Shown in pieces: positions 1,848 to 38,580 of a stretch of 64,000 nucleotides of DNA. Under the pieces are notes generated by a model. That model made no database searches, was not told the DNA's origin, and was given only the letters and a program-made list of their open reading frames with translations. Each line of letters opens with the position of its first letter. Position 1 is the stretch's first letter. Origin of the DNA: Puia sp. (GTDB lineage: Bacteria > Bacteroidota > Bacteroidia > Chitinophagales > Chitinophagaceae); assembly GCA_031292515.1 (NCBI GenBank), contig JARLGZ010000247.1, positions 104,193 to 168,192 on the forward strand, written 5' to 3'. Both the position numbers and the translations under genes were made by a program.

Positions 1848-1891
1848 AAAATGGACCTGAAAAAATCTACGAAGGGGTGAAAAGACTTTAC

Positions 1892-2029
1892 AAATGTACG
1901 GATTAGCCGACGACGACTTGCAAGGAACTACGGCATAAACACCAAGCCACCACGCAATCCGTTCCTTTATTCCGTTCCTCCTTGCTTCGAACCGGCTGAA
2001 TCCGTGCCGAGGGTGAATATTTTTTCACC
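1892..2029 (+). promoter_or_regulatory. Dispersed structured leader, copy 1 (large hairpin plus GGGTGAA..TTCACC mini-hairpin)
   Basis: ACGGATTAGCCG…GCAAGGAACTACGGCATAAA … TTTATTCCGTTCCTCCTTGC…CGGCTGAATCCGT forms a long imperfect inverted repeat; ATG of the next ORF is at 2045. Confidence 0.75.
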
Positions 2030-2044
2030 TACAAATTATTAATT

Positions 2045-2494
2045 ATGGAAAAAACAAAACAGGTAACTGATTGCATCCTTATTAAGGCCTCCGACACCAG
2101 CGAATGGGACTATTGCAACTTTGCGCTCATTTCTTGTCCTGCTGAATGGAAAATCTTGTTGAAAAGGCGGCTCGAACAGATCAAGCCTTTCGAAAGCGAT
2201 TCATCCTTTAGGGCGCTCGTATTTTGGGATTTCAACGTTGATTTCTTGCAAAATAGGACACGTGCATCGGACGATGAAATCGTTGACGAAGAGACTTTTT
2301 TCGAGGAGAAAAATTGGCAGTACGTAGTATTGAATAATAATGAATTTGATGAGATTGCCAGGCCAGAAAACAAAATCCGGGCTCATCAACTCGTTCTATA
2401 CAGTCGGGGAACGGCAAAATTCCAGGCTTGGGGGGAACACACAAACGAAGAATTTACCACGGAAGAATTCAGTATCGATGATCTCTTGGCATAG
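2045..2494 (+). CDS. Hypothetical acidic protein (149 aa) downstream of structured leader copy 1
   Basis: Intact ORF starting 16 nt after the leader hairpin. Confidence 0.65.
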   Translation: MEKTKQVTDCILIKASDTSEWDYCNFALISCPAEWKILLKRRLEQIKPFESDSSFRALVFWDFNVDFLQNRTRASDDEIVDEETFFEEKNWQYVVLNNNEFDEIARPENKIRAHQLVLYSRGTAKFQAWGEHTNEEFTTEEFSIDDLLA

Positions 2495-2690
2495 TTGCTT
2501 AGTGTCCTGCAAGAGGTAAAGCGTTCCTGTGTCGGCAGCGCATGCAGCAATGGAGGTGTGTCCGGCAGGGATTCAACCCCTGTCCAGATCTTTGCCCTCG
2601 AAAGGAGCGTGCGCTCCATCGGCAGGCTGTCGGGTCTTGGCTATTTCAGTTATTCCTGCCTTCGGGTCGGAGATTGACCACTGCTGCGGA

Positions 2691-2723
2691 AAACCGGAAG
2701 GCGGATCGAACGCCTTCCGGTTT
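2691..2723 (+). terminator. Perfect 13-bp stem hairpin with GATCGAA loop
   Basis: AAACCGGAAGGCG-GATCGAA-CGCCTTCCGGTTT; same loop as 1815..1847 with a different stem sequence. Confidence 0.65.
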
Positions 2724-3145
2724 ACGGGTGATTCGAGCAGCTGTGCTTCTTCTTGCTCCTTCATCTTATTCAAATGCCAATTAGTTACGAGCAGACCGTA
2801 GACATCCGCCCGTCTTGGCTTTAGGTGCTTTTCAGGTATAGTGCTGCGCGTGCATGAAAAGCCGACTTCAGAAAATGAAACCTTTTTTTCATCCGCTGAA
2901 CTCGGATAAATTTTGAATAAATGTTAAAAGACGGGTACAAAACTGTGTTTTTATACGGGGAACAGGCGTGTTAAAACGCCATTTTTTTATGTCAAAACGC
3001 TATTTTTTATGAAAGGGCAACTGGGTATTCGACATTTGGCAAGCCCCTGAAATAGTATCGTATGACTGAAATGAATAATTCGACTGTGGTATTTTAGAAC
3101 CACACAGGAATGGAGCGGCCTCAAAAAAAGTGAGTTTCCTATCGC

Positions 3146-3153
3146 TACATTTG
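3146..3153 (+). promoter_or_regulatory. Candidate Bacteroidota -7 element
   Basis: TACATTTG matches TAnnTTTG, about 58 nt upstream of the ATG at 3211. Confidence 0.45.
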
Positions 3154-3210
3154 AAATGCGACGGCATTTTTTGCTGGATGGCCAACTCCTAACCGCTCAA
3201 CCTGCTTCTT

Positions 3211-4659
3211 ATGAGATACATCGTAGGGCTTCTGCTACTACTATTATGCACATGTGGCGTGTATGCACAGGACCAAGCCGATCCTACAGCCAAAGTAGTC
3301 AACTTCCCTTCAAAGTTTTTTACTCGCATTCAGCAGAAAACCTCCACTCTTAGTGCAGAACTCACCCGACAGACCGAAAAATACCTGACAAAACTTGCGA
3401 AACGCGAAGACAAGCTGAGGCGGAAAATTGCAAAGTTGGATTCTGCCTCAGCCGCAAACTTACCTCCGAGTCAATACGCAGCACTGGCGAACAAGCTAAG
3501 AATGGATTCCGGACGCGCGGTGGCGTCTTCAGGTGAATACATGCCCGGCATTGATAGTTTAAAAGGGGGACTTTCGTTTCTGAGTCAAAATCCCAATATT
3601 CTGGGTGCAAATTCAGCCATGAAGGGTCAACTACGAAAATCGTTTACTCAATTCAATCAGCTTCAGGCCAAAATGCAAGATGCCGACGCCATCAAGCAGT
3701 ATGTTCAAGATCGGCAGGCTCAAATCAAACAATATCTCCTTAGTAAGTTCACGACCCTTCCTCCAGGTATCGCCAACCAAACGCAAGCTATCCGACAAGA
3801 GACGTATTACCTCTCTGCTCAACTAAAAGAGTATAAAGACATGTTGAATTCCCCCGATCAACTTACGGAAAAGGCCCTCGCCATTTTGGAGAAACTTCCG
3901 CAATTTCAAAATTATATGAAGGCCAATGGCCAATTGGGATCCCTGTTCAGCCTTCCGGGTAACTATAACAGTACCACGGCGCTGGAGGGTCTACAGAATA
4001 AAGATCAGGTTGTTGCTTTAATGACGGGACAGTTTTCCGGTGGTGGCCCCGATCCTCTTTCCATGATCCAGCAAAATGTGCAAGCTGGACAAAGCCAACT
4101 GGACAATTTCAAGAACAAATTAGCTGCCCTGGGACCTGGCAGCGGTGATATGGAAATGCCGAATTTTAAACCCTCCCGGCAAAAGACGAAAACTTTCCTA
4201 AAACGTCTGGAGTATTCGACCGACTTTCAAACTACCTCTACCAGTTATTATTTTCCAACAACCACTGATTTAGGGCTCAATGTTGGTTACCGAGTTTCAG
4301 ACAAGAGTACAATCGGTATTGGGGCAGCCTATAAAATTGGCTGGGGGAATGGCTTTCAGCACATGGCACTTAGCAGTCAAGGTGCAGATATCAGGTCGTT
4401 TATCGACGTGAAAATAAAGGGAGGTTTTTCAGCAACAGCCGGCCTCGAATACAATTACCAACAGCTTATTAGTTCCTTTCAACAGATCCGCAACCTATCG
4501 GACTGGTCAAAGAGCGGCTTGGTTGGAATTAGTAAAGCCGTGTCTATGAAAAATTCCGTTTTCAAACAGACAAAGCTCCAGCTATTGTGGGATGTTCTCA
4601 GCTTTTCACAACGCCCACGCTCGCAGCCTTTTAAATTTCGGGTTGGTTATTCATTTTAA
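3211..4659 (+). CDS. Secreted/outer-membrane protein with coiled-coil N-terminal part and probable beta-rich C-terminus
   Basis: Signal peptide MRYIVGLLLLLLCTCGVYAQ; C-terminus …FRVGYSF ends in an aromatic residue as outer-membrane barrels do; immediately upstream of the RHS genes. Confidence 0.65.
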   Translation: MRYIVGLLLLLLCTCGVYAQDQADPTAKVVNFPSKFFTRIQQKTSTLSAELTRQTEKYLTKLAKREDKLRRKIAKLDSASAANLPPSQYAALANKLRMDSGRAVASSGEYMPGIDSLKGGLSFLSQNPNILGANSAMKGQLRKSFTQFNQLQAKMQDADAIKQYVQDRQAQIKQYLLSKFTTLPPGIANQTQAIRQETYYLSAQLKEYKDMLNSPDQLTEKALAILEKLPQFQNYMKANGQLGSLFSLPGNYNSTTALEGLQNKDQVVALMTGQFSGGGPDPLSMIQQNVQAGQSQLDNFKNKLAALGPGSGDMEMPNFKPSRQKTKTFLKRLEYSTDFQTTSTSYYFPTTTDLGLNVGYRVSDKSTIGIGAAYKIGWGNGFQHMALSSQGADIRSFIDVKIKGGFSATAGLEYNYQQLISSFQQIRNLSDWSKSGLVGISKAVSMKNSVFKQTKLQLLWDVLSFSQRPRSQPFKFRVGYSF

Positions 4660-4668
4660 GTCCCTAAC

Positions 4669-7600
4669 ATGAAGAAGAAACATTTTATTACATTCCTTTT
4701 GTCCCTTATTTTGGCCTCGATTATCTGTGAAGGACAAGCTATTGTTAACACTCCTGATTTCGTTCCGCCACCGGCAGATGCCGCCACACTCGGCAAGTAC
4801 GGAGATGTTCCGGTTACGATGAGCAATGGTTCGACAACCATCACCGTGCCAATTTATGATATTAAAACGCCTCGCCTGTCACTTCCCATTGGTTTCAACT
4901 ACAACACTGCTGGCATTAAAGTCGACGATGTTGCCAGTTGGGTGGGTTTGGGCTGGTCCTTAAACGCAGGTGGAGTTATTACCCGCGCTGTTCGTGGTAT
5001 CGATGATCTGGCTACCAAAGGATATTACAATTCAACGGTTCCATTAGCGGTGACAACCTCCTCGACTACCAGTTGGAAATTTTTTCAGGACGTTATGAAT
5101 CAAACGCAGGACGCCGAACCCGACTATTTTTTTTACAACTTTGGTAAATATGCCGGAAAATTTATTTTCAATGAAAGCAAAGTCCCTACCATTATAAACT
5201 ATCAGGATCCATTGAGCATTAAATATACGGGGGCCAACAGCTTCACTATTACCGATGGAGAGGGAAACAACTACTATTTCAACGATGCCGAAACATCCCA
5301 AAGTGGCGTACATCCGTCAGCCGTTGTGCGCACTTACACCTCCTCTTGGTATCTTACCCGCATTGTCTCGAACGACCGGACAGACACAATTAGCTTTACG
5401 TATGCATCCGATGCTGTCTTAGGCCAAGAAACATTTGATTATTACGAGTCCGTAGGACCCTATTACACATCCAGCATTGTCCAAAACGTCTGCAATCTAA
5501 CCTTCAATGCCATAGGACAGGATGGTCGTGGAAGCATTGTGGGAGAGCCCTATACGAATAGCACGCCATTGCGCTTGCAAGAAATTAACTTCAAAAATGG
5601 AAAGGTTCATTTTTATTCTTCTGCCACGCGAGTGGATGTCGGCGGGGTTAGGTTGGATTCGGTCATTGTAAGTAGCTATGATTTCCCGACGAGAACGTAT
5701 ATCCCAATAAAGAAAGTCAAATCCGCTTACGATAACTTCTTTACCTCTCTTCCCAATGTTCCCGCTACATCCCCTTCTCCCTATCGTCTTCGATTGGATA
5801 GCGTAATGATGACGGGAGGGGATAATTACCCTGCAGGAAGGTACAAGTTTTTATATGATTCCACGATGTTGCCTTACATTACCAGCAATGCGAAAGACTG
5901 GTTTGGCTATTACAATGGTAAAATAACAAACGTTTCCCTTATTCCGACGCAAAATATCGTGTTTAGTTCCACACCATACACGGTTGGCAATGGGGACAGG
6001 AGTTGCAATCCTGATTCCATTCAGGCAGGGGTCCTAAAATGGATCTATTATCCTACGGGTGGCTATACGCACTTCACTTACGAGCCAAATAGTTATCAAG
6101 GCAGCTTTCAAGATTATTCGCAGACTGCTTTTGCAAGAGGGACTAGTGTGCAGGCCGATTCCGTGACGTTCACTCCTGCCATTACATCAAATGTTATGGG
6201 CACTCTTACGGTCACTTTTACCGGTTATAACTACTTCGACGTGCACACTCCGCCTTACATTCGAATCGTTAATGTCACCACTGGAGCTGTGGCCACCTAT
6301 TTCGCTATGAGTCCTCAAAACGGATCTGTGGCCTCTATTGCCTATCCACTCATTGCAGGCGATACCTACCGGCTGGCTGCTTATGCATTCGACGACAATA
6401 AGGTTCAATCAAATGTCAACTTGGAATGGCAAACTTTTGACGGCGTCACCGTCCCTGGGGGCGGCCTTCGAGTGAAGCAGACTACGGATTACGATTTTAA
6501 TGGTCGATTTGTTAAAAGTGATCTGTATAAATACGGTGTGGGCGAATCGGGATTTGGATTTCTGCCCTCGTCAGCCATCCTGCTAAACACCAATAGCACG
6601 ACGAGGACCTATCAATATACGTGCCCGGGATGGCCGCAATTTTGTGGCGCTGGACCTTCTGGCGGGTTGTCGAGGGAGACATTTTGTGGATATAGCTTAT
6701 ACGATCAATTTTCCCTTTCGGGACCTCCTGTGAGTTACAGCGAGGTCGCAAAATACCAAGTAGATTCCCTGGGCAATGCCATTGGCAAATCCATCTATGA
6801 CTATACCGTTTACCAAAACAACACTTTATTTGCCTCAGCAAGCTACCAGGAAGGATTTGACATCACGAACTCAGGATGGGCCGGAGGGTTACTGGTTGGT
6901 AAAAGAGATTATGCATGGAAGAGTGGCGTATTCTGGCCTGTTAAGACGACTTCCTTAACTTATACAGGTACGAGCTCCCAGATTGGACGGGGTCTTAAAT
7001 TGGGAGAAAAGAGCGTTTTTGTAAATAACACGCAGCCACTCGATTCTGCAAACGTACAAGGATCTTGCTGGAATGCCATCTATTACTGTTTTGACTATCC
7101 AATATATGGCGGTAGCCAAATGCCCGCTACCCAAACTGTATTGGACTATGACGTAACGGATTCAACAAAATATGTGGTGAGTACAAGGAATACAACTTAT
7201 AATTATGCATTGGGAGACCTTCAACCGGTGACCATTACGGAGAATAGAAGTGATACCGGCTTAAACGTCGTCACCAATTACTATCCGGCAGAATTAAGTT
7301 CTTTAACCGGACTTTCGTCAGGTGAAATAGCGGCCATTGACACCTTAATTGCTCAGCACAATATTACTCCTGTCCTTCAGACACAAACAAATTACGGAAA
7401 TACCGTAACCAGTATTGTAAAGAAACATTATTCGTTATGGAATTCGTTCATGGCACTTCCCGCTAGCGTAGAGGTTCAGAATGGAAGCGCTCCAAGCGAA
7501 ACGAGATTGCAGTTTCTAAAGTATGATCCTTACGGGAATGTGCAGTTAGTCGGCAAATCGGGAGACCTTAAAGTAAGGTACATCTGGGATTATAAAAACT

Positions 7601-8637
7601 CTGTACCGATTGCGGAAGTAAAGAATGGATCGGACACTGCCACAGCGTATACCAGCTTTGAAGCGGACGGCACCGGCAACTGGACACTGCCTGATACTAC
7701 CCGAGTGCGCGGAGATGGTTTTACAGGCACGGTATCGTATGATATGACGGGCAAAACCATTACAAAACTGACAAGTGGTAATTCTTATGTCGTCTCTTAT
7801 TGGGCAAAAAATGGCCCCTTAACGGTCAAATATTATGTTATGGGCCTTGCCTACCCCGCGACAGCAACAGTTGGTATGACCAAGAACGGATGGACGTATT
7901 ATGATTATATTATTCCGGCCACCTCTAAGATCTTACTCATCGGCACTACTTCACATATCGATGAATTGAGACTGTATGCAACCGCTGTGCTTATGAAAAC
8001 ATATACCTACCAGCCTCTTGCCGGAATTACGTGTGCTATCTCAGAGACGAATATTCCTACGTTCTATGAGTATGATCGCCTCAACCGATTAAAAGTTGTT
8101 CGTGATATCGACAGGAACGCTGTAAAGGTTTATGACTATGAGTACCAGGTAAGCCCGCATACGTTCTATAACACTGCAACGCTGCTGAATTATACTAGAA
8201 ACAATTGCGCCATTTGCCTGGTTGGAAGTACAGTTTCTTATACGGTGCCAGCTGGAATGTTCTCCTCTCTGATCAGTCAGGCAGATGCGCAGTCGAAAGC
8301 AATTACCTATGCAAATGTGGCGGGCCAGGCGTATGCCAACGCAAACGGTACTTGTACGACGCCTGCTATTGCACCTATTACGGCAACAAACAGTACTACC
8401 TCTACAATAATGGTAGCATTCGTCAACAATTGCACCGGCACGGAATATGATTTCAGGTTAAGCACTTCTACGGGTACAAATTGGAATACTGTTCCGCAAG
8501 GCACATATACGGTTAGCATTGGAGGTGGAACGGCAACGACGACTTATTATGTGAACGGATTTAGTCAGACAGGTAGTTCTGCAAGTTTCGGAAGTGTTCC
8601 AATGGTAAGTGGATACAATTATTTTCAGGTACATTAA
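4669..8637 (+). CDS. RHS/YD-repeat-like large surface protein
   Basis: 1322 aa with signal peptide and repeated YD-type motifs (e.g. YEYDRLNRLKVVRDIDRNAVKVYDYEYQ). Confidence 0.75.
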   Translation: MKKKHFITFLLSLILASIICEGQAIVNTPDFVPPPADAATLGKYGDVPVTMSNGSTTITVPIYDIKTPRLSLPIGFNYNTAGIKVDDVASWVGLGWSLNAGGVITRAVRGIDDLATKGYYNSTVPLAVTTSSTTSWKFFQDVMNQTQDAEPDYFFYNFGKYAGKFIFNESKVPTIINYQDPLSIKYTGANSFTITDGEGNNYYFNDAETSQSGVHPSAVVRTYTSSWYLTRIVSNDRTDTISFTYASDAVLGQETFDYYESVGPYYTSSIVQNVCNLTFNAIGQDGRGSIVGEPYTNSTPLRLQEINFKNGKVHFYSSATRVDVGGVRLDSVIVSSYDFPTRTYIPIKKVKSAYDNFFTSLPNVPATSPSPYRLRLDSVMMTGGDNYPAGRYKFLYDSTMLPYITSNAKDWFGYYNGKITNVSLIPTQNIVFSSTPYTVGNGDRSCNPDSIQAGVLKWIYYPTGGYTHFTYEPNSYQGSFQDYSQTAFARGTSVQADSVTFTPAITSNVMGTLTVTFTGYNYFDVHTPPYIRIVNVTTGAVATYFAMSPQNGSVASIAYPLIAGDTYRLAAYAFDDNKVQSNVNLEWQTFDGVTVPGGGLRVKQTTDYDFNGRFVKSDLYKYGVGESGFGFLPSSAILLNTNSTTRTYQYTCPGWPQFCGAGPSGGLSRETFCGYSLYDQFSLSGPPVSYSEVAKYQVDSLGNAIGKSIYDYTVYQNNTLFASASYQEGFDITNSGWAGGLLVGKRDYAWKSGVFWPVKTTSLTYTGTSSQIGRGLKLGEKSVFVNNTQPLDSANVQGSCWNAIYYCFDYPIYGGSQMPATQTVLDYDVTDSTKYVVSTRNTTYNYALGDLQPVTITENRSDTGLNVVTNYYPAELSSLTGLSSGEIAAIDTLIAQHNITPVLQTQTNYGNTVTSIVKKHYSLWNSFMALPASVEVQNGSAPSETRLQFLKYDPYGNVQLVGKSGDLKVRYIWDYKNSVPIAEVKNGSDTATAYTSFEADGTGNWTLPDTTRVRGDGFTGTVSYDMTGKTITKLTSGNSYVVSYWAKNGPLTVKYYVMGLAYPATATVGMTKNGWTYYDYIIPATSKILLIGTTSHIDELRLYATAVLMKTYTYQPLAGITCAISETNIPTFYEYDRLNRLKVVRDIDRNAVKVYDYEYQVSPHTFYNTATLLNYTRNNCAICLVGSTVSYTVPAGMFSSLISQADAQSKAITYANVAGQAYANANGTCTTPAIAPITATNSTTSTIMVAFVNNCTGTEYDFRLSTSTGTNWNTVPQGTYTVSIGGGTATTTYYVNGFSQTGSSASFGSVPMVSGYNYFQVH

Positions 8638-8651
8638 TTATAGTTACTATT

Positions 8652-9197
8652 ATGAAAAAGATCATTAATATATCCTTATTAGCGTTGACCTTTTCAACAA
8701 CCGGTATTTATTCACTGACGTTCAAAACCCCGGATGGGAATTCTGTTTCTCTTTCCACTTACGCCGGAAACAAAATGGTCATTGTGGTATTCAATCCAAC
8801 CGATAGGGATTTTACGGAGCTTAAGATGCTGGATTCTGTTTACCGGGATTTTCCAACTGTTCATTTTATTGCTGTTCCGGGTATAGACTTTGCCACCGGT
8901 CAGATTGATTCGGTGGCAAAGATCCAGGATTCTTCAATTTCAGTTTTAAAGGCAAATCTGGGACTGAGTATTGCTGTAACAGAGGCTTCCTTTGTGAAAA
9001 AATTTGATACGCTTACTCAACACCCCATTCTTCAATGGTGCACCCATCAGGCGCAGAATACCCACTTTGACCGTGATGTAGAAGCAGAGGGGCAACTTTT
9101 TTTCGTGAATGAAAGCGGAGTCTTGTATAGCGTCATGCCGAAGGAAACCAGTAAAGCACAGATCGAACAGATACTTAATACTACGATTATTCAATAA
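8652..9197 (+). CDS. Thioredoxin/peroxidase-fold-like secreted protein apparently lacking the catalytic Cys
   Basis: FKTPDGNSVSLSTYAGNKMVIVVFNPTDRDF… resembles the GPx/TlpA N-terminal motif, with T/D where Cys is expected. Confidence 0.5.
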   Translation: MKKIINISLLALTFSTTGIYSLTFKTPDGNSVSLSTYAGNKMVIVVFNPTDRDFTELKMLDSVYRDFPTVHFIAVPGIDFATGQIDSVAKIQDSSISVLKANLGLSIAVTEASFVKKFDTLTQHPILQWCTHQAQNTHFDRDVEAEGQLFFVNESGVLYSVMPKETSKAQIEQILNTTIIQ

Positions 9198-9242
9198 AGC
9201 CCATTGGCATTGTAATTCAGCTGGACATAAACCTCCATTATT

Positions 9243-13571: not shown

Positions 13572-13608
13572 GAGCATTTGATATAATAAAATCGTTTAAA
13601 TCATCGCT

Positions 13609-13878: not shown

Positions 13879-14214
13879 GATGGCAACCAATGAGAGGTTG
13901 ACTGTTTCCAAGTCTTGAAGACTGGTCTTTTTTGAAGGATTGCATAAATACCGAAAAATGTACAATTTTATAGGTTAGAAAGAAACCCGCAACCTGTGCG
14001 CCAGGACCCGGTGATTCCATGCCGGTCGGTGAACTGTTGTACCTGCGCCGGTTTGCAGTTTTCGCAAAATGGGAATCCAGAAAAGGGCCGCCTACCCACC
14101 ACCATACTATCCCGGGGCCAGCTCTCCAGCCACGACAATGGTATCCTTCGCACAAAGATTAAAAATGCGAACCGCATTCCGCGGAAATCCCCCACCGCAC
14201 AAGCTCATTCTTCC

Positions 14215-14427
14215 CTCTACCCTGAAATTACTATTGTCCTACGGCAAATACAAGTCTCCACTTCGCATCGCTTCGTTGCGTCTCCGAAAAAAATCTCCAC
14301 CCCCCAGCGGACGAGGACTTTTTTTGTCGGGGTTGTATTTTTTGCGGAGAACCCTTGTATTTCCCTCCGGCCAATTGAGTGAGGCTGGTCGCTACGGGTG
14401 AATGAATGAGGCACTCTGCCGATTTCG
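14215..14427 (+). promoter_or_regulatory. SSB leader, copy A (duplicated structured leader)
   Basis: Shares GGCTGGTCGCTACGGGTGAATGAATGAGGCACTCTGCCGATTTCG with 23540..23584; upstream arms ATTG..CC..CAAATACAAG and CTTGTATTTCC..GG.CAAT can pair. Confidence 0.6.
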
Positions 14428-14453
14428 ATTTCTTCACTCAAAAACACACTTTT

Positions 14454-14867
14454 ATGCACACGTTTACAGGCCGCATTACCCGAAATGCCAATTTGCACGA
14501 ATTTGATGGTGGAAAGTCCATCGTCAGTTTCACCATCGTCGAGAACAACAGCTACGTCAACAAAGACAAAAAGCTGGTTGAAAAACCCTATTTCGTCCAG
14601 TGCGAGATCTGGAACCGCAAAAACCTTGTCCGCCACCTGAAAAAAGGGATGCTCCTACAAGTGGAAGGCGAACTCGGTGTCCGGGCCTTCATCAAGGACA
14701 AAGATACCCACCACGCCAAAGCCGTAGGTGTCCAACAACTGACCGTTCGGGAACTCAAGTTCCTCGATAGCAAAAACAAGACGCAGGGCAGTTCGGAACA
14801 GCCCGCCGCTGCCACCACAACCCCTCCGGCTGTGACCGGCACCGATGCAGATGATCTCCCGTTCTAG
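14454..14867 (+). CDS. ssb: Single-stranded DNA-binding protein
   Basis: OB-fold SSB pattern MHTFTGRITRNANLHEF…VEKPYFVQCEIW…LLQVEGEL… with acidic C-terminal tip DADDLPF. Confidence 0.9.
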   Translation: MHTFTGRITRNANLHEFDGGKSIVSFTIVENNSYVNKDKKLVEKPYFVQCEIWNRKNLVRHLKKGMLLQVEGELGVRAFIKDKDTHHAKAVGVQQLTVRELKFLDSKNKTQGSSEQPAAATTTPPAVTGTDADDLPF

Positions 14868-14929
14868 TCATTCACCCGTCCGCGCCTCTCACAAGGGGCG
14901 CGCTTTTTTCACCTTTCAATCGAATTACA

Positions 14930-15619
14930 ATGACAACCAATTTTTTCACCTTGCTGGAGACCCTCGCCTTTTACGGGAATACAACCCTCCAACTCTCCCT
15001 TTCCAAAGAGACCGGCTGGACAGGCTATATCCATTTTACCGATCCTAATGCCGGTGAATCCTTTAACAACAAACTCATCCCCCTGACCTTTCAGGGGACC
15101 AGTGCCTATTTGAACGAGCACTTTATTTCAACCCTCCGCGAACCCGTCCGGCAGGTCCAAGAAGGTTTCGCCAACCGTACAGCGTTTGCCGCCAGTCTCA
15201 AAGCTGCCGAAGCGAGTTCCAAATCCTCGCCTGCCAAACCCGTTCCCAAATCCTCGGTTCCAGCCCTTCCCGCCAGATACGTCGAATCCATGAAGAAGGT
15301 GGACGAACTGGCCTCCAAGAAGCTCTACGGACAGGCCATTGGCGCACTTCCCTCCAAAGAGAAATTTCCCGGACAAGCCACGGCCATCGACAAACGACTG
15401 GCCGAACTGCGGACGCTGCACGGCGGCCTGTCTCTGTTCCCCGGTGAGCCTCCCCCTAACTCGGAAGCCAGCGTTTCGGCAGAACCGGTGACTACGGAGG
15501 ATCCTGTCGGCTCGTCAAATGACGAATCGGACGACGATCCCGCTGACAATGATCCCAACTGGGAGCCGGGGGAGGATGACGATCCCCTCGATTCGGCAGC
15601 AACCGAAGACGATGATTAA
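14930..15619 (+). CDS. PRTRC system protein E
   Basis: N-terminal sequence, acidic C-terminus and position in the PRTRC cluster. Confidence 0.8.
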   Translation: MTTNFFTLLETLAFYGNTTLQLSLSKETGWTGYIHFTDPNAGESFNNKLIPLTFQGTSAYLNEHFISTLREPVRQVQEGFANRTAFAASLKAAEASSKSSPAKPVPKSSVPALPARYVESMKKVDELASKKLYGQAIGALPSKEKFPGQATAIDKRLAELRTLHGGLSLFPGEPPPNSEASVSAEPVTTEDPVGSSNDESDDDPADNDPNWEPGEDDDPLDSAATEDDD

Positions 15620-15657
15620 CTCCGCCACAAACATTCCTTCATCAAAAACGTATCATC

Positions 15658-15870
15658 ATGTTTACACCCATGCCCCGCGTCTTTATACTCAAGCGGAACA
15701 ACAACGAGATAGAATTATCGGACCCCAACATCGACCTACCCCCGAAGGCCGTTCGTGACCTGTACTCGGCTACCTACCCGGAGCTGACAACAGCCACCTT
15801 CGAAGGACCGGTCCCCAAAGACGGCAAACTGATTTTCAAATTCGTTCCCACCATCGGGACCAAAGGATAA
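15658..15870 (+). CDS. PRTRC system protein C
   Basis: Small ORF with PRVFILKRNNNEIELSDPN…; between the E-like and F-like genes. Confidence 0.8.
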   Translation: MFTPMPRVFILKRNNNEIELSDPNIDLPPKAVRDLYSATYPELTTATFEGPVPKDGKLIFKFVPTIGTKG

Positions 15871-15939
15871 TCAATCTGCTATGAAAAAGAAACCCATTTC
15901 TTCACTCCGCTCTCTTGGGCGGCTAGAATCTCCACAACA

Positions 15940-17031
15940 ATGGAAACTGTATCAAAGCATCGGACAAACTCTCGAAAGGCTGGAGCAACTCCCGACCGCC
16001 GAACAAGCCCTGCAACGAAACACGCCTCCCGTACCACTTACACTCCTGAAACCCATTTCCTGAATGCGCGCTTTGAAAGGGGCTATCACCCCAATGCATG
16101 GCCACTCAAAGAACCGACCCTTATCCAGCAGGAGTTTTTTACCTCGGCAGGACATCTCGCCCGGTTGCACTCTCTCACCCTCCCGGATACCTCGGCGATT
16201 CCCTTTCCCCACAACATCGACACCTGCTATCGTAACCTTTGTCTTCAATTGGAGGACATCGATACCGACCTGGGCCTTGTGATCCTGCAAGGCCCGGGGG
16301 GAAAGGTCTGTCTGACTACGATCAAAGAACTAGACCTGCAACAGAACGCATGGTATGTAGCAGTACATCCGCTCTACCGGGAATGCCAACAACCCGTCTC
16401 GGACGGATACCGGCAACTGCTGCTCGCCATCCTGCAATTTCTGATCGAGAAAATCGGCTATGCGCCATATTGGGTGAAACATACCTTCATGGCCGACAAT
16501 TACGAAGCAACCCGCCGGTCCTTCGATGAAAACAAAGACGAAGAAGAAGAAGAAGCGGTGCAGGAATGGCGCACCGAAACCGCCCTGATCGAACAGGTAG
16601 GAAAGTATTTTCAGGAGCAGTTGCAACAGCCTCGTCCCTCCCTCACGGACTTGCTGCAAAGGTACCGTCCAATATCGGCGCGGGGCAAGGCCCTCCAAAA
16701 GCTGGCCACCCGCTTCGCCCGGCATGAACAACGCTACCCGCTCCGCCACCTTGCGAGGGAAATCCCCGCAGGCTGGCTCCAGCCCGGGGTCGAAGAACGT
16801 CTCCCGAGCCACTACTTCTTCTGTCTGGTCTACGACTACACCGGTCTATTTCCCGAATCGGTCAACGCCTCCATCGATTCGGAGTTTCAGGAAGCGTGCG
16901 TCTTCGATATTCCCATCGGGATGCAACACTTCGAACGCCGTCAGTCCCGGATCCACCATGACCTACGCTACGAAGAAGCCTGCCTCCAACTCATCGAACA
17001 ATTTGAACACTTCTTAACATCAAATCCATGA
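15940..17031 (+). CDS. PRTRC system protein F-like (start uncertain)
   Basis: Long ORF in PRTRC synteny. The first ~35 codons look out of frame; see finding on overlap with 15881..16063. Confidence 0.65.
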   Translation: METVSKHRTNSRKAGATPDRRTSPATKHASRTTYTPETHFLNARFERGYHPNAWPLKEPTLIQQEFFTSAGHLARLHSLTLPDTSAIPFPHNIDTCYRNLCLQLEDIDTDLGLVILQGPGGKVCLTTIKELDLQQNAWYVAVHPLYRECQQPVSDGYRQLLLAILQFLIEKIGYAPYWVKHTFMADNYEATRRSFDENKDEEEEEAVQEWRTETALIEQVGKYFQEQLQQPRPSLTDLLQRYRPISARGKALQKLATRFARHEQRYPLRHLAREIPAGWLQPGVEERLPSHYFFCLVYDYTGLFPESVNASIDSEFQEACVFDIPIGMQHFERRQSRIHHDLRYEEACLQLIEQFEHFLTSNP

Positions 17032-17750
17032 ACAATTTGAGTAATTCCTTTGCGCAACAATATATCCCGGAGACCGCCCTTGTCCTTTCAAAAAACAACG
17101 TGCGAGACGACCAGCCGGAATTTTTTGTCGAGGTCTATCCCCTCGGTCCGGACGGCTGTCCCCTTGCAGGCTATCCGCTCAGCCTGTCCGAAGCCAGTAC
17201 CTTGGGAAGAGCCTTCCTCTCTCAACAGGCCGGAGGCCGAACCTTCCTGCTTCCGCAGGGGCTACTTACTGACAACATCCTTTATCTTTCGGAGCAACCC
17301 GAGCCCACCGTGATCTGGTGGACAAAAGCCCAAACCGAGACCCTGTATTTTCAAGACCATCTTGGCATCCCTTCCGGTCCGACTGCTCTGCCACCCCTGC
17401 TTTGGAAAGCTGGCCGGGAACACCTTTCAATCTACGCGCTGCAAAAAAACCAACGTCCGAAACCTACTACACGCCTTTGCAAAGCCCCTTTTTTCAATGT
17501 CTATGCCTCCAACGAAGTCTGCATGGGAACGGTTCGAATTGACACATCCTCCTGCGATTGCCTAGAATCCTTCGTCGTCACCTGGGAACGGTATTTCTTC
17601 GATTCGGCATTTTCCCACCTGCTCGGCGAATCCTCGCCCATCGACGGCAACATCGTCGACTGCTGGTCATCCCTCGCAGGCACCAACAACCCTTTTCCTG
17701 TCCGTCTCCTGAAACCCACCCAACAAACCCTTCAATCCCTTTTGTCATGA
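17028..17750 (+). CDS. PRTRC system protein B
   Basis: Position immediately before the ThiF gene with an ATGA overlap; sequence character of PRTRC-B. Confidence 0.75.
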   Translation: MNNLSNSFAQQYIPETALVLSKNNVRDDQPEFFVEVYPLGPDGCPLAGYPLSLSEASTLGRAFLSQQAGGRTFLLPQGLLTDNILYLSEQPEPTVIWWTKAQTETLYFQDHLGIPSGPTALPPLLWKAGREHLSIYALQKNQRPKPTTRLCKAPFFNVYASNEVCMGTVRIDTSSCDCLESFVVTWERYFFDSAFSHLLGESSPIDGNIVDCWSSLAGTNNPFPVRLLKPTQQTLQSLLS

Positions 17751-18583
17751 ATGCTCACACACAACAAATTCAGCCACCCCCTCCGATCTCTACACTGCCC
17801 GCCGTACATTTTGTAGATCCCTACCTGCTCAACCCTACCAATCCGATTACGGTAAACGTCATCGGCGCGGGCGGTACCGGTAGCCATGTCATGACGGTTC
17901 TCGGCGCCTTAGAAGAAGCGCTCCGTGCATGGGGCCATCCCGGTTTGCAGGTCACTGCTTTCGATGACGATGAGATCACCGTGTCGAATATGGGCCGACA
18001 GGCTTTCTTTCGCAGCGAAATCGGCCAAAACAAAGCTGTGGCCATCGTCACCCGCATCAACCGGCATATCGGTACGCGCTGGCAGGCTTCTAAACTGCGC
18101 TGGAAGAAAACAAACAAGGAAGCCTTGCGCGGGGCGGTCCGCGCCAACCTGACCATCAGTTGTGTTGATAGGCCCGAGACTCGTTTTGACATCGAGACCT
18201 TGTTGGGTCGCCCCGGGGGAGGACATGGCCCGGATAATCCCCTCTATTGGATCGACTTTGGTAACAGCCGCTACACCGGCCAGGTGTTGTTGTCGACCCG
18301 CCGCGACATCAAACAACCACCCCTAGAAGGCTATCACGGAGTGGGCTATCTGCCATCCGTCACCCGCCAGTACGAAGACCTGCTGTATGCCGCGACAGAC
18401 AGCGACGAACCGAGTTGTTCCATGCTGGAAGCCCTCAACCGTCAGTCCTTGTTCATCAACCGCAGCCTCGCTTCGGTAGGGGGCATGTTGTTGGAAAACC
18501 TATTCCGACAATCGATCCTCGATTCCAAAGGATTTTTCCTCAACCTCTCTGACGGCGTGATGCGTCCGATCCCGATCGGCTAA
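17747..18583 (+). CDS. PRTRC system ThiF-family protein
   Basis: VNVIGAGGTGSHVMTVLGALEEAL…VTAFDDDEITVSNMGRQAFF is a ThiF/E1-like Rossmann motif. Confidence 0.9.
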   Translation: MNAHTQQIQPPPPISTLPAVHFVDPYLLNPTNPITVNVIGAGGTGSHVMTVLGALEEALRAWGHPGLQVTAFDDDEITVSNMGRQAFFRSEIGQNKAVAIVTRINRHIGTRWQASKLRWKKTNKEALRGAVRANLTISCVDRPETRFDIETLLGRPGGGHGPDNPLYWIDFGNSRYTGQVLLSTRRDIKQPPLEGYHGVGYLPSVTRQYEDLLYAATDSDEPSCSMLEALNRQSLFINRSLASVGGMLLENLFRQSILDSKGFFLNLSDGVMRPIPIG

Positions 18584-18829
18584 ACCCCGCAATTCCAGAC
18601 GGCTCCCCGCCGTCGGGACCCGGGGGTTAAAGGTAGAAAGCCGCCAACCTGCACCAGCCAGGCGGCCGGCTTTGGATCGTGGGACCACGCCCAACGTCCT
18701 GTTCTCAATAAGCTTCGTTTGGAAATACAATCGGGTAGGGGTGTCCATATCCATACAGGATTGCTACGCCGCCCAAGAGGGCCATTCGAAATCTCCCTCG
18801 CTCAAAACTGGGTAGGAAAAAACAATGCA

Positions 18830-18972
18830 AAAATACGGGCCACCCGGGAGAGAGAACGGTCAAGGAGTTCGGCATAAAAACACAACACCCGCTCACCAAG
18901 CTCTCTTTTATATTCCGCTCCTCCTTGCCCCTTTCCCGGGTGACCCGTGCCCCAGGGCAAAATTTTTTCACC
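18830..18972 (+). promoter_or_regulatory. Dispersed structured leader, copy 2
   Basis: ACGGGCCACCCGGGA … TCCCGGGTGACCCGT with central TCAAGGAGTTCGGCATAAA…TTTATATTCCGCTCCTCCTTG; ATG at 18988. Confidence 0.75.
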
Positions 18973-18987
18973 CAAAACAGCAATCCC

Positions 18988-19209
18988 ATGCTTATCACAC
19001 GCATCAGCCAACTCGATGGCCAGGAGTACACGATGGACCTCAACATCACCCTTGCAGAACTCGCCCGCATCCGGGCCGGTCAGCTCGTCCAAACCGTCGT
19101 TCCCCACCTCCCCAGGGAGGAACGCGAATTTCTCATCAGCGGCATCACCCCCGATGCCTGGGAAAAGACCTTCGGCGGAGTAGATACCGAACCTCCTGCC
19201 CACCAGTAA
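18988..19209 (+). CDS. Small hypothetical protein downstream of structured leader copy 2
   Basis: MLITRISQLDGQEYTMDLNITLAELARI…; starts 15 nt after the leader. Confidence 0.6.
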   Translation: MLITRISQLDGQEYTMDLNITLAELARIRAGQLVQTVVPHLPREEREFLISGITPDAWEKTFGGVDTEPPAHQ

Positions 19210-19277
19210 TCGATTTCCCCGCGACTGCCTCTCCCCGAGAGGTGGTCGCTTTTTTTGTCACCTTTTAATCTTTTCGT

Positions 19278-19565
19278 ATGTCCACTTCCAAAACACCGTC
19301 CATCGATCGCTTCGCAGACCGTCCAGCTACCGAACAACGCCTTAGCCCGCAAATCACCGCCTTCCGTCAACCGTTCCTTCCCGTCAACCCGATCCCCTTC
19401 CTGGAAGCTCTTGCCACCGGGTGCCGCGAACTAGGAACGGAATGGATCCGGTCCGACGCAGCGCAGGCGCTCCTGCACATCCTGCTGCAGCAGTCCTACG
19501 GTCAACGTTACCTGGTCGACAGCGACGAGGAATTCTTTCGGTTGCTGACGATTTTCGAGCCGTAA
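19278..19565 (+). CDS. Hypothetical protein (95 aa)
   Basis: Intact ORF followed by a GC-rich hairpin and T-run. Confidence 0.5.
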   Translation: MSTSKTPSIDRFADRPATEQRLSPQITAFRQPFLPVNPIPFLEALATGCRELGTEWIRSDAAQALLHILLQQSYGQRYLVDSDEEFFRLLTIFEP

Positions 19566-19861
19566 CGCGGATTTTCCTTCCCGGCCGCCACTCGGCGACC
19601 GGGATTTTTTCTGAATAGCCAAGGTGGGAATCGACAGGGAAAGCAATGAATTCCCCAAGATACGGACGCGCCGGGAAAGGTTTCGCGCAAGATGACCTTC
19701 AAAGAAATTCAACAGATCTTCAACTTCGTTTTCAATCACCCGGAATTGATCGCCATTCAAGACGAAACGTAAGTCCATGGCCGGTGGCACGACAAAGCGA
19801 CACCGGCCTTTTTTATTGCTGCTAACAACAATACCGAGAAGAGAAAAAGAACATCGATAAT

Positions 19862-20010
19862 TCACAAATGTACGGTCAGGGCCGGGCGCTCGGAGAAAGG
19901 AACTACGGCATAAACACCTATCCCAACCCCAAGGCCCTCTTTTATTCCGTTCCTCCTTTCCGGCGGCCGGCCCAACCCGTGTGACCAGGTGGTCAATCGA
20001 TTTCTTCATC
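19862..20010 (+). promoter_or_regulatory. Dispersed structured leader, copy 3
   Basis: CAAATGTACGG…GGGCCGG…AAAGGAACTACGGCATAAA…TTTATTCCGTTCCTCCTTT…CCGGCCC; ATG at 20026. Confidence 0.7.
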
Positions 20011-20025
20011 TTTTAATCTTTTAGT

Positions 20026-20745
20026 ATGTCATTCAAATTTAAGATTCATGGTCAGTACACGATGGTCTGCGCCGCCAGTTCCGTTACCACCCTTTTCGAA
20101 ATCGTCGTTACCTCCGTCAAGGAATTCCGACCGTACTACCGTATCGTCCGAAAGTGGCAGGAAGGTACGTGGTCAGTCCTTACGGATAGATACAGATTCC
20201 CTGTGCCGAATGAACACGATCTGGCAGACTACCTGGTCTTTGCAGGCCACAACTTACCCATCAATGTCTACATCCGCGTTGGCCACTGGCGGCATATCGC
20301 CCCGTTTAATTTTCACTCCGCAGATCCGGACGCATTGAAGCTGTTCATCCAGCAACACTGTTTGAATCGGTCGCTCCCACACGAAGCCCGAATCCGGGTC
20401 TTCGATGCCCGAGGTTCCCAGGAAGACTGCATCGCGCTCTTCCCGCCAGACCGGGAGCTGTGGGGCAAAAACCTTTTCCAGGAACGGGAAGTGTTGCCGG
20501 GGATCTATTTCGCGATAGGTCAGGAAGGGGATTCGGTGCTCCATGATGGCAAGTATTGCCTGGCGATGGCTTACTGTTATAGCTCGGGGGAATCGAACTA
20601 CCGCGTACAGATTCACGGCGAAATCCTTTGCGGAGGCAAGAAGTTTGTTCGCAACCGCTACCGCTCACAGAAAGCCGCCAACAACGGACTGCTTTTTCAT
20701 GCAAACCGGTTGCACCAACTCCGAAAGGAGAGCAGTGGCAACTGA
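20026..20745 (+). CDS. Hypothetical two-domain protein (fusion equivalent of the 915 and 1330 ORFs)
   Basis: Internal similarity to the two left-end ORFs. Confidence 0.65.
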   Translation: MSFKFKIHGQYTMVCAASSVTTLFEIVVTSVKEFRPYYRIVRKWQEGTWSVLTDRYRFPVPNEHDLADYLVFAGHNLPINVYIRVGHWRHIAPFNFHSADPDALKLFIQQHCLNRSLPHEARIRVFDARGSQEDCIALFPPDRELWGKNLFQEREVLPGIYFAIGQEGDSVLHDGKYCLAMAYCYSSGESNYRVQIHGEILCGGKKFVRNRYRSQKAANNGLLFHANRLHQLRKESSGN

Positions 20746-20823
20746 TCGTTCGATGGGTCGAATGCGGGTGGCGCTTTGCGCCACCTTTTTTTATGCTGTC
20801 CACCCACCACAGGAAAAATAATC

Positions 20824-20970
20824 TCACAAGTTACGGGTTGCCGGGGAACCTTTTAACGCAAGGAACTACGGCATAAACGCAAATCCGCCCACAGACCCCC
20901 TTTTATTCCGTTCCTCCTTGGCGTCTTCCCCGCCGAACCCCTGCGAAGCGGTGAAAATATTTTTCATCGT
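20824..20970 (+). promoter_or_regulatory. Dispersed structured leader, copy 4
   Basis: ACGGGTTGCCGGGGAA…GCAAGGAACTACGGCATAAA…TTTATTCCGTTCCTCCTTGGC…TTCCCCGCCGAACCCC; ATG at 20984. Confidence 0.7.
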
Positions 20971-20983
20971 AAAATTTCTTATT

Positions 20984-21541
20984 ATGAATCACAACAGCAA
21001 GAAAGAAACTTTTGGAGAGAGGGAGGATGATCTTATGATCTACTTTAACTGGTCGGCCAATGCACTGGTGCCGGTGAATCCGGGAGCGGCTGATACTTAC
21101 TTGAAGGAGAATCGACCGGTTATCCTAAAAATTGCGCAGTTCCTATTGCAACACCTGCATTATATTCCTACTCGTGTTTACAGGGGTATTATCTTAAAGG
21201 AGCCCGTCACCGTTGTCGCGCCCAAAAAAGGGCTGGAATATCTGTCCTTTTCTGCTGATCGCAAGGTAGCCGAACACTTCGCCGATGTGAAAGGATTCGG
21301 TAGTGACGTTGTTAATGTCGCCGCTCAATTAGGTACACATGGCTATGTAATAGAATATTCTCCCAAGATCAGCGAGGTACTGTTTCACTACCACTTGCTT
21401 TCTCGTTTTCCCTATGCGCAAGCCTTCAACTCGCTAGGCATCGATGGACACCAAGAAGTGGAATTTTTAAAGTCTCAGCAAGAGATAATGATTCTCCAGC
21501 CCCAAGATCCATTCACGACTATAACAAAGCAAGGGAAATAG
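20984..21541 (+). CDS. Putative R-S-E type ADP-ribosyltransferase-fold protein
   Basis: RVYRGI (R), YLSFSADRKVAEHFAD (S-x-S) and QEVEF (E-x-E) appear in the ART order. Confidence 0.6.
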   Translation: MNHNSKKETFGEREDDLMIYFNWSANALVPVNPGAADTYLKENRPVILKIAQFLLQHLHYIPTRVYRGIILKEPVTVVAPKKGLEYLSFSADRKVAEHFADVKGFGSDVVNVAAQLGTHGYVIEYSPKISEVLFHYHLLSRFPYAQAFNSLGIDGHQEVEFLKSQQEIMILQPQDPFTTITKQGK

Positions 21542-21863
21542 GATTCGAGGCCGTCTTCTAACTAGGAGACGGCCTTACAAGCCATATATTTTTTAGTTGA
21601 TTATCCGGAGGTTCTGGCCTCTTTACAGACAACCGGAGATAAAAGTAAATCCCCAAATCCACGGTGCCGTCGCTCGCGCCCCAGGGAACGATGGCCCGAG
21701 CGATTCATCCACAGTGATCGTGCCGGATTCGTTGAGTGGCATTGCCACGAAGGTCCGGGCTGATTGTAAAACGACTATTTCGGGGCAAGCCTGAACGCAC
21801 GTTTTTTTTGTTTTAACCGCGGGGGATCCGCGGACTGTTTTATCTGACGCATCGGATTCAAAC

Positions 21864-22103
21864 GGCTGGGCGTTGAAAACCGGGAGGGCGGATCGAACGC
21901 CACCCGGTTTGAAACAATGGCGACGGTGCTACTAGCAGCGGTGGGGGAAAAAAGGGTCACAAATTTACGGGTTAGTCGGAATCGTAGAGCAAGGAACTAC
22001 GGCATAAAAACACAAGGCCCCCCACAAAGCCCTCTTTTATATTCCGTTCCTCCTTGCAACGTTCCGGCTGAACCCGTGCCCAGGGTGAAATTTTTTCACC
22101 TTT
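21864..22103 (+). repeat. ~240-bp near-identical direct repeat, copy A
   Basis: GGCTGGGCG(T/C)TGAAAACCGGGAGGGCGGATCGAACG… through the structured leader; matches 24093..24331 with a few substitutions. Confidence 0.9.
21957..22100 (+). promoter_or_regulatory. Dispersed structured leader, copy 5
   Basis: CAAATTTACGGGTTAGTCGGAA…GCAAGGAACTACGGCATAAA…TTTATATTCCGTTCCTCCTTGC…TTCCGGCTGAACCCGT; ATG at 22119. Confidence 0.8.
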
Positions 22104-22118
22104 TAATCTTTATTTATT

Positions 22119-22490
22119 ATGGACCAGCTACTCTTCCAGCGCATGTTCGACTTCCTGATCAGAAAAATTCGAATCGCTTCCCAATTCATCCGCGATTTTC
22201 GTTATCAGCTCCGCTGCGAAATCGCCAACGAACATCTGCTCAGCACCGATACGGTTGAATTCTACGCAATGGAACCCATCCTGCGACGCTACGGCAATGA
22301 GGCGCTCCACCTGCAGGGAGATGCTCTTGAATCCTATGTCACCGAAACTGCTTGGCAACGCAACCGACCCCTACAGGAGATTTATGAATTTCAACGGTGG
22401 TATTATGATCACTACGTGCCCCGTTCCTTTAAAAAGCAACTGCGCAAAGGGTACCTGAAGCGAATGCTTCAACAATTCTTCTACGCTTAG
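22119..22490 (+). CDS. Hypothetical protein (123 aa) downstream of structured leader copy 5
   Basis: Intact ORF starting 18 nt after the leader, followed by a terminator-like hairpin. Confidence 0.65.
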   Translation: MDQLLFQRMFDFLIRKIRIASQFIRDFRYQLRCEIANEHLLSTDTVEFYAMEPILRRYGNEALHLQGDALESYVTETAWQRNRPLQEIYEFQRWYYDHYVPRSFKKQLRKGYLKRMLQQFFYA

Positions 22491-22555
22491 TCATCCCCAA
22501 ACGCCGGCCTAACAGGTCGGCGTTTTTTTATTTCTTAACCTTTTAATTACTTTTT

Positions 22556-23221
22556 ATGCCTTACAGAGAAATTTGGATTCCCAACGAACTATTCCTCGAA
22601 CACAATGGCGTTTGCATTTACCTGACGTATAAAAACGACGAACAGGAAGTCCTAGACTATCACTTCGGAACCGCTTCCGATACGAAAGTGAGCAACGACG
22701 ACGAAACACTTTTCGATATTCGGGACCTGTCCAATTGGCCCGGCGAAACCCAGGGCGCTAATATGGACATCCTGATTCGATCGGTACTCATCGAAGCAAT
22801 TGAACTGGGTCTGTTAAATGACTGTTTCCTGGCAGCCATCGGAAGACAAGGTGACCTGGAAAATGCCGAGTACTGCAAACCCGTTGATCGCCGGGAATTT
22901 CATGCAAAGGAATTTACCCGTCTTCTATCTACCATCCACCTGACGCTGCTTTACCGGATTGAAGCATTGTTTCGATCAATGGATCCGGCCGCCGGCGTCC
23001 CGACCCCGCTCGCCCATCCGGTTCCCTACGAGGGATGCGAAGATTACGAGATCCATTCCTTAATCGACTGCCCAATCGGATCGGGTTACCATGTTGGTTT
23101 GTCGTATTTGCAATCGATCGACGGTTTCCCACATCCCGAACAGTGGTTTGTGGAAAGTCTACCCAACGACGTGTTGGTGTTGTTGTTGCAATCGCTGGAA
23201 CAACAGTTGTCGGAGGACTGA
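22556..23221 (+). CDS. Hypothetical protein (221 aa)
   Basis: Intact ORF; no family recognised. Confidence 0.6.
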   Translation: MPYREIWIPNELFLEHNGVCIYLTYKNDEQEVLDYHFGTASDTKVSNDDETLFDIRDLSNWPGETQGANMDILIRSVLIEAIELGLLNDCFLAAIGRQGDLENAEYCKPVDRREFHAKEFTRLLSTIHLTLLYRIEALFRSMDPAAGVPTPLAHPVPYEGCEDYEIHSLIDCPIGSGYHVGLSYLQSIDGFPHPEQWFVESLPNDVLVLLLQSLEQQLSED

Positions 23222-23379
23222 CACTTCTGAGGGCCGGGGGATTCCTCTCCTGGCTTTTTCACTTTCATAGCAACATCTTCTACCTTCGGCAGGCACCTCG
23301 TACTTGCTCACTTCTCAATGCAAATGCTGCCGCCTTGCGTTCCGCATTCCCACTCCTTGCTCAGTCATTCTTCTTCCCC

Positions 23380-23584
23380 TGAATTTACGATTGCCCGCCG
23401 TGGAAATGAAAGTTTGCACTCCACTCCGTTTCGTTCCATGCTGGAAAAAATCTCCACCCGCCTGGCTCTCTGACGCCCAAGCCAGCGGGTCGTATTTTTT
23501 CGGGCGCACCCTTGCATTTCCCTCTGGTCAATGACGTAGGGCTGGTCGCTACGGGTGAATGAATGAGGCACTCTGCCGATTTCG
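23380..23584 (+). promoter_or_regulatory. SSB leader, copy B
   Basis: Conserved 3' 45 nt with 14383..14427; upstream arms ATTGCCC…GGAAATG and GCATTTCC…GGTCAAT can pair. Confidence 0.6.
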
Positions 23585-23614
23585 CATTAAATCACTTTAC
23601 AAAAAAATCAATTT

Positions 23615-23992
23615 ATGGAACAGATCAAAGGAATCGTTGTCGCCAATGCAACTGTCAATGATGTCAAAGAAACCACCGTTGTCAACTTCAGGATCGCCGA
23701 AAACAGAAAGTACAAAGACAGGCAGGGTAATCTGCAGGAAGCTACCCGGTTTTTTGATTGCGCGTGGTGGGGCGTTGATTCGGTTGCAAAACACCTTACC
23801 AAAGGCAAACTCGTCTTCATCGAAGGGTTCATTAATGCAAGGGCCTATATCAAGAAGGACACCGACGAGGCAGTTGCGCAGTTGACCTTGAAAGTAACCC
23901 GTTTGCAGATGTTCGATATTGTCAAAAAGGGAGCAGCCACCGATGGCGCGGACAAAGAGTTCGTGGCACCGGATGACGATCGTCCGTTTTAG
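23615..23992 (+). CDS. ssb: Second single-stranded DNA-binding protein
   Basis: MEQIKGIVVANATVNDV…FFDCAWWG…LVFIEGFINARAY… with acidic tip DDDRPF. Confidence 0.88.
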   Translation: MEQIKGIVVANATVNDVKETTVVNFRIAENRKYKDRQGNLQEATRFFDCAWWGVDSVAKHLTKGKLVFIEGFINARAYIKKDTDEAVAQLTLKVTRLQMFDIVKKGAATDGADKEFVAPDDDRPF

Positions 23993-24092
23993 CATGCGTG
24001 ACGTGCGTCTCGAGAACAACCCGGGACGCACTTTTTTATGTCTCAACCGCAGGAGTTCAAGGCTTATTGTTTTATCGGCTACGTCATATTAT

Positions 24093-24331
24093 GGCTGGGC
24101 GCTGAAAACCGGGAGGGCGGATCGAACGCCACCCGGTTTGAAACAATGGCGACGGTGCTACTAGCAGCGGTGGGGGAAAAAAGGGTCACAAATTTACGGG
24201 TTAGCCGGAATCGTAGAGCAAGGAACTACGGCATAAAAACACAAGGCCCCCCACAAAGCCCTCTTTTATATTCCGTTCCTCCTTGCAACGTTCCGGCTGA
24301 ACCCGTGCCCGGGGTGAAAATTTTTTCACCT
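24093..24331 (+). repeat. ~240-bp near-identical direct repeat, copy B
   Basis: Matches 21864..22103. Confidence 0.9.
24186..24330 (+). promoter_or_regulatory. Dispersed structured leader, copy 6
   Basis: As copy 5, with GCCGG in place of GTCGG in the left arm (restores Watson-Crick pairing); ATG at 24347. Confidence 0.8.
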
Positions 24332-38572: not shown

Positions 38573-38580
38573 TCATTACA
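38573..38580 (+). promoter_or_regulatory. Candidate Bacteroidota -7 element
   Basis: TACATTTG upstream of module 2. Confidence 0.4.

Follow-up and report, generated by a model that had tools for sequence, protein, structure and literature searches.

Six hairpins located in a 64,000-nucleotide stretch of Puia sp. contig JARLGZ010000247.1 (the window, i.e., the whole stretch analysed) are, with good probability, promoters specific for single-stranded DNA that serve the leading-region genes of an integrative and conjugative element (ICE). The evidence comes from computation and comprises the fold of the hairpins and its covariation, the promoter motif, the spacing of the promoter elements, a bubble of open-complex size, the orientation and a nick motif; from these we infer transcription of the folded single strand, its timing and its shut-off. 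Such promoters had been proposed in a first-pass annotation of the window, and those of its predictions that can be tested at the sequence level came out as predicted. The 13 copies in the genome, the helix downstream of the promoter motif, the constant spacing along the template arm, the family beyond this genome and the origin of transfer (oriT) are additions to that proposal.

The annotation had placed six elements in the window, each ahead of an open reading frame on the + strand with a defined ATG, and all of them were found there (Table 1; the bottom strand is the complement of the given strand, and the downstream genes are on the + strand). A covariance model, R1, built from ten copies in the bottom-strand sense, matched the window in that sense in exactly six places, which are the six hairpins; two weak matches on the + strand are hairpins 5 and 6 read on the opposite strand. 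Folded as single-stranded DNA, as the annotation had advised, all six bottom strands clearly proved more stable than dinucleotide shuffles (z from -2.9 to -6.9), and none of 200 shuffles was equally stable. For copy 4 the preference for one strand is evident, with z of -4.6 for the bottom strand and only -0.7 for the top strand. A 233-bp segment comprising the hairpin and an upstream terminator-like repeat is present at 21864-22096 and again at 24093-24325 with 98% identity, which is a recent duplication of the promoter unit.

Bacteroidota do without the classical sigma-70. Their primary promoter bears TAnnTTTG at -7 (in Flavobacterium psychrophilum it spans -12 to -5; PMC9723704) and TTTG near -33 at variable spacing (PMC7366714). 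Among 94 non-redundant hairpins, an exact TAnnTTTG on the bottom strand is concentrated at the stem base, with 56 cases in the -70..-35 bin vs. 0-6 in each other bin, while on the top strand no peak of this kind was seen up to 350 nt to either side. The first T of the motif often takes part in the final base pair of the stem and the remainder is mostly unpaired, so that the annotation was right in putting a -7 motif at the junction of stem and single strand; the bottom-strand letters it had quoted for the six copies are exact (Table 1). The -33 element is CCTTG/CAAGG, the start of a conserved apical box, and the TTG expected 22-25 nt upstream of the motif is indeed present in five of the six window copies, copy 3 having CCTTTC there.

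The spacing of the two elements becomes regular only upon folding. Along the linear sequence, TTG and TAnnTTTG are 21-26 nt apart in one set of hairpins (n=40) and 30-38 nt apart in another (n=16), the non-template arm having a bulge that differs in length between copies. If the template arm is followed instead, most distances are 18-22 in either set (medians 20 and 18.5), and the -33/-7 spacing is therefore constant only in the folded strand. This spacing suits the promoter of PMC7366714 with its -7 box at -12 to -5 (PMC9723704), so that, just as in the Frpo/ssi elements of plasmids, the fold rebuilds two elements of the host housekeeping promoter at the correct distance. Beyond the -7 element a second helix follows, with a flank pairing score of 8.58 vs. 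5.93 for permuted flanks (p about 1e-19); in copy 1 it is formed by GGTGAAAAGA and TTTTTTCACC. Numbered as in a promoter, its median start is 0 / +1, close to where transcription is predicted to begin, and the resulting order of duplex, bubble of about 12 nt (the size of an open complex) and downstream duplex is the layout of a melted promoter. The predicted leader to the gene has a median of about 32 nt over the family.

The same motif could be read as an ordinary duplex promoter (TTG...TAnnTTTG on the bottom strand) directed leftward to a divergent gene or an antisense RNA, since it is a real match to the -7 element and the linear spacing is 21-26 in 40 of 56 cases. We regard this as very unlikely. 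The linear spacing is 30-38 in the other 16; the left neighbours are codirectional, not divergent, in 63 of 85 cases, so that a leftward promoter would usually serve no gene; the likely genes of the window up to 31.6 kb lie on the + strand; and the arms, the downstream helix and the apical box would be left without explanation.

For the single-strand promoter, we propose that the bottom strand would enter the recipient single-stranded and then fold. The two arms would pair, placing the -33 element in a duplex at about 20 nt from the -7 element, and the mostly unpaired TAnnTTTG would serve as the non-template strand. The second helix would stand for the downstream duplex, such that, for the housekeeping sigma factor of Bacteroidota, the whole would mimic a promoter that has already melted. 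RNA polymerase might then take the rest of the incoming strand as the template and proceed into the adjacent gene. Synthesis of the complementary strand would remove the hairpin and leave the -7 element pointing the other way, thereby turning expression off. If so, genes for early survival would be switched on at once upon entry into a new cell.

The annotation took the bottom strand for the folding strand, which is borne out by both stability and G.T pairs. With DNA parameters, the bottom strand is the more stable one in 85 of 94 hairpins, and with the arms taken without the invariant core it is favoured in 80 vs. 32. In the structural columns of the bottom-strand model, G.T exceeds A.C in bottom-strand letters (74 vs. 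31, with 117:87 expected; p 0.007). In 87 of 94 hairpins a particular pair of the core is G.T, corresponding to an A.C mismatch on the top strand. An earlier count on crude arm alignments gave 20 vs. 13, which is not significant, and 35:12 and 18:8 in helices. The fold itself is supported by an alignment of 99 sequences, in which 91.8% of cells are paired and 372 double changes were counted vs. 113 in shuffles, with none of 500 shuffles reaching the score; all six pairs adjoining the -7 element covary.

Covariation would be equally expected of a structured leader on the + strand mRNA, acting as a riboregulator or in translation control behind an ordinary duplex promoter upstream, and such a leader would likewise precede the ATGs. 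However, upstream of the hairpins the top strand has no enrichment of TAnnTTTG, and folding is better on the bottom strand, whose G.T pairs turn into A.C on the other. A leader would also leave the conservation of the unpaired TAnnTTTG without explanation, and Rfam gave no family at the gathering threshold in the window, nor any at the hairpins of four loci with E allowed up to 1. An RNA leader thus appears improbable to us.

The context of the window hairpins is that of conjugation. They are followed by genes for a mobilization protein, a relaxase and a coupling protein (Table 1), an integrase gene of the element is at 58998, and TraM of a Bacteroidota transfer system is encoded on the same contig about 55-83 kb to the left of the hairpins. 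Among the hairpins of 46 genomes examined, 17 have a relaxase gene within 10 kb (11 elements, 7 genomes), and all of them are codirectional with it and point to it; at distances up to 100 kb, 39 of 45 are codirectional. Several elements repeat one order, with transfer genes leftward, hairpin genes rightward and the relaxase rightward; in others, TraM is followed in the same direction by the hairpin within about 3-8 kb.

A search of the window for exact matches to YATCCTGY, the nick consensus of MOBP relaxases, gave no useful site beside the relaxase gene; CATCTTGC, which differs by one base and adjoins an inverted repeat, was taken instead. Of 21 regions preceding mobilization genes, 14 contain GCAAGATG followed by an inverted repeat, always in one orientation. 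On the bottom strand of the window the inverted repeat precedes CATCTTG^C, which is one base away from the MOBP consensus (C/T)ATCCTG(C/T), and the repeat lies 5' of the nick as in RP4 (PMC3772185). This orientation makes the bottom strand the predicted transferred strand, running leftward into the hairpin region, and the strand that folds is therefore the one predicted to be transferred. From its predicted 5' end at 27726, hairpin 6, the copy closest to oriT, would be reached after about 3.4 kb. The link to conjugation drawn in the annotation is thus supported from two sides, the direction of the hairpins near relaxase genes and the strand of the nick motif; as in Frpo/ssi, the predicted oriT and nick together with the relaxase orientation place the hairpins in the leading region with the transferred strand as the template.

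The covariance model and wider search that the annotation had called for revealed relatives across Bacteroidota, typically just ahead of a gene. The source genome holds 13 matches to the model, nine on the contig of the window, three on contig C85 and one on contig C145, and a match was found in 24 of 396 genomes sampled evenly from the phylum. A search of species genomes with the apical-box pattern gave 93 stretches, from Pedobacter, Mucilaginibacter, Chitinophagaceae, Cytophagales and Flavobacteriaceae; the samples consist in part of metagenome-assembled genomes, and two hits lie on such genomes labelled Proteobacteria, which are probably mis-binned. Hairpin copy 6 had no match among 72,556 plasmids, where a core query gave only chance matches of 22-29 nt, and the phage collections yielded no family member. 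Across the family, hardly any variation is seen in the apical box, GCAAGGAACTACGGCATAAA with TTTATTCCGTTCCTCCTTGC.

So strong a conservation of the apical box could mark the site of a replication protein, as would be expected if the hairpins were ssi/sso sites, at which the folded transferred strand recruits RNA polymerase or primase for a complementary-strand primer and gene expression is secondary. The same anatomy would serve priming, and the title of Masai and Arai 1997, as cited in PMC11541004, describes Frpo of F as also producing primer RNA. But a single priming site would suffice, whereas the contig of the window carries nine copies, most of them just ahead of a gene. As the primary function we find priming unlikely, the least so among the alternatives; it could coexist with the promoter function.

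Several points weigh against single-strand promoters. The hairpin sequences are related, so that the counts are not independent, and the alignment behind the G.T count was fitted to bottom-strand pairing. Part of the bias in stability toward the bottom strand is compositional, as mismatched-arm controls give 60%. TTG is not universal, being missing from copy 3 and from hairpins U1 and U2, and in the window copies a local small hairpin, GGTGAAA..TTTTTTCACC, competes with the downstream helix. Of the 45 hairpins with a relaxase within 100 kb, six run against the nearest one, at distances of 17 kb or more, and pointing toward the relaxase is a necessary condition that an ordinary RNA leader would meet as well. 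Two ssb genes of the element (14406 and 23615) do not stand directly behind a hairpin. Finally, the conservation of the apical box goes far beyond the needs of a -33 element, and a further binding partner or function of the box is therefore likely.

The closest known systems are the Frpo/ssi elements of F and ColIb-P9 (PMC9849209; PMC11541004). These, too, lie in the leading region, where a stem formed by the transferred strand restores two promoter elements, and they stand in several copies ahead of early genes, so oriented that the transferred strand is the template. The Bacteroidota hairpins differ in using the TAnnTTTG / TTG code instead of TATAAT / TTGACA, in adding a second helix that encloses a bubble of open-complex size and a near-invariant apical box, and in residing in chromosomal ICEs. 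They have no sequence match in the plasmid collection, kinship to Frpo being judged here without a direct Frpo alignment. The sso of ICEBs1 (PMC4595007) is likewise a single-strand element of an ICE; unlike it, the hairpins are many, and each stands directly ahead of a gene with promoter geometry. Most likely they belong to the single-strand promoter kind, outside the Frpo sequence family.

Integron attC sites are also hairpins folded from single strands, of similar length, with variable arms and beside small open reading frames, and their arm ends carry the boxes RYYYAAC ... GTTRRRY. That the hairpins are recombination sites of this sort is the least probable of the explanations considered. 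They stand ahead of the gene and not at a cassette end, their conservation follows the promoter motif, and the arm ends of the window type (ACGGGTT..AACCCGT), read by eye as ACGGGTTAGCC..GGCTGAACCCGT, lack the boxes; position and conservation thus fit promoters. Each of the rival explanations fails to account for the spacing upon folding, the bubble or the strand data, save that a priming role may coexist.

We give about even chances to the broader view of a phylum-wide class of single-strand promoters, consisting of a complete pre-melted promoter and a near-invariant apical module, the probable binding site of a dedicated factor, and forming a multi-copy switch for sets of leading-region genes with no detectable sequence kinship to Frpo. 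The literature searched, which did not extend to subscription papers and preprints, yielded no description of such promoters in Bacteroidota. Published searches for Frpo used BLAST to known Frpo and TTGACA/TATAAT (PMC11541004), and the Bacteroidota hairpins would therefore be missed by them. If the promoter function is true, the same principle is met with a different sequence and a different sigma-factor code; in the ICEs of Bacteroidota the hairpins would point out leading regions and candidates for anti-defence genes, many of the genes behind hairpins having no known family, and they would offer a natural series of pre-melted templates for the study of the Bacteroidota polymerase.

Table 1. 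Hairpins, promoter motifs, genes and predicted transfer sites in the window. Motif letters are those of the bottom strand, complementary to the positions given.
Feature	Position	Strand	Remarks
Hairpin copy 1	1890-2007	-	covariance model match 107.8 bits; fold z -2.9; ATG 2045 on +
Hairpin copy 2	18827-18950	-	103.3 bits; z -5.5; ATG 18988 on +
Hairpin copy 3	19864-19982	-	97.5 bits; z -3.5; ATG 20026 on +
Hairpin copy 4	20825-20944	-	107.6 bits; z -4.6; ATG 20984 on +
Hairpin copy 5	21959-22079	-	131.6 bits; z -4.3; ATG 22119 on +
Hairpin copy 6	24188-24308	-	135.2 bits; z -6.9; ATG 24347 on +
-7-like motif, copy 1	1891-1898	-	TACATTTG
-7-like motif, copy 2	18828-18835	-	TATTTTTG
-7-like motif, copy 3	19865-19872	-	TACATTTG
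-7-like motif, copy 4	20827-20833	-	TAACTTG, degenerate
-7-like motif, copy 5	21960-21967	-	TAAATTTG
-7-like motif, copy 6	24189-24196	-	TAAATTTG
Gene behind copy 1	2045-2494	+	no family
Small gene behind copy 2	18988-19209	+	no family; directly after PRTRC-like genes
Gene behind copy 3	20026-20745	+	no family
Gene behind copy 4	20984-21541	+	no family
Gene behind copy 5	22119-22490	+	no family
Gene behind copy 6	24347-24661	+	no family
Predicted nick motif CATCTTG^C	27726-27733	-	one change from MOBP consensus (C/T)ATCCTG(C/T)
oriT inverted repeat CCATTGTGAC-acg-GTCACAATGG	27736-27758		adjoins nick motif
MobC/NikA-like mobilization protein gene	27856-28257	+	PF21983 1.6e-15, PF19514 1e-14
Relaxase gene, MobA/VirD2-like nuclease domain	28242-29603	+	PF03432 1.2e-28
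Coupling protein gene, YWFCY + TraG/VirD4	29615-31603	+	PF14293 5.3e-23, PF02534 4.3e-20

PADLOC, NCBIfam and Pfam gave no name to the genes behind the six window hairpins, which are candidates for new establishment or anti-defence functions. The start of the gene behind copy 6 resembles that of a gene behind a hairpin on contig C85. Elsewhere, some of the genes behind hairpins are of the leading-region type, in agreement with the annotation; the proteins encoded there include ArdC (anti-restriction), SSB and RadC/JAB as well as DUF932, DUF6876, DUF6934 and DUF6943, and in one case a MobC gene lies about 0.4 kb behind the hairpin. In a sub-type made up of hairpins L044, L046-L048, L049, L072, L074 and L080, the hairpin is followed closely by a conserved pyrimidine tract, CTTTCTTTTTTTCC..TTTTTTCTTTT. 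The sub-type stands ahead of DUF6876- or DUF6943-type genes, and in several of its copies the complement of the tract pairs with an A-rich run to the left of the hairpin.

A 98-nt repeat (14330-14427 and 23487-23584, 87% alike) stands as a leader before both ssb genes of the element; it was considered as a second hairpin class and rejected, its fold being not clearly better than that of shuffles and its sequence falling outside the hairpin family. Inside the leading region, a PRTRC-like cluster at 14930-18583 comprises PRTRC B, a weak PRTRC E and ThiF. Farther along the window, tandem gene pairs resembling histidine kinases and response regulators occur as cargo together with small membrane proteins at 36010-40760, as judged from sequence alone, followed by a Hachiman-like defence pair (HamB helicase and HamA DUF1837) at 41299-45557, which shares the contig region of the element. 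A long prokaryotic Argonaute (class II) and a Cas4-like nuclease gene occupy 50178-53529, and just past them, at 54755-56881, lies a gene that is helicase-like by its N-terminus.

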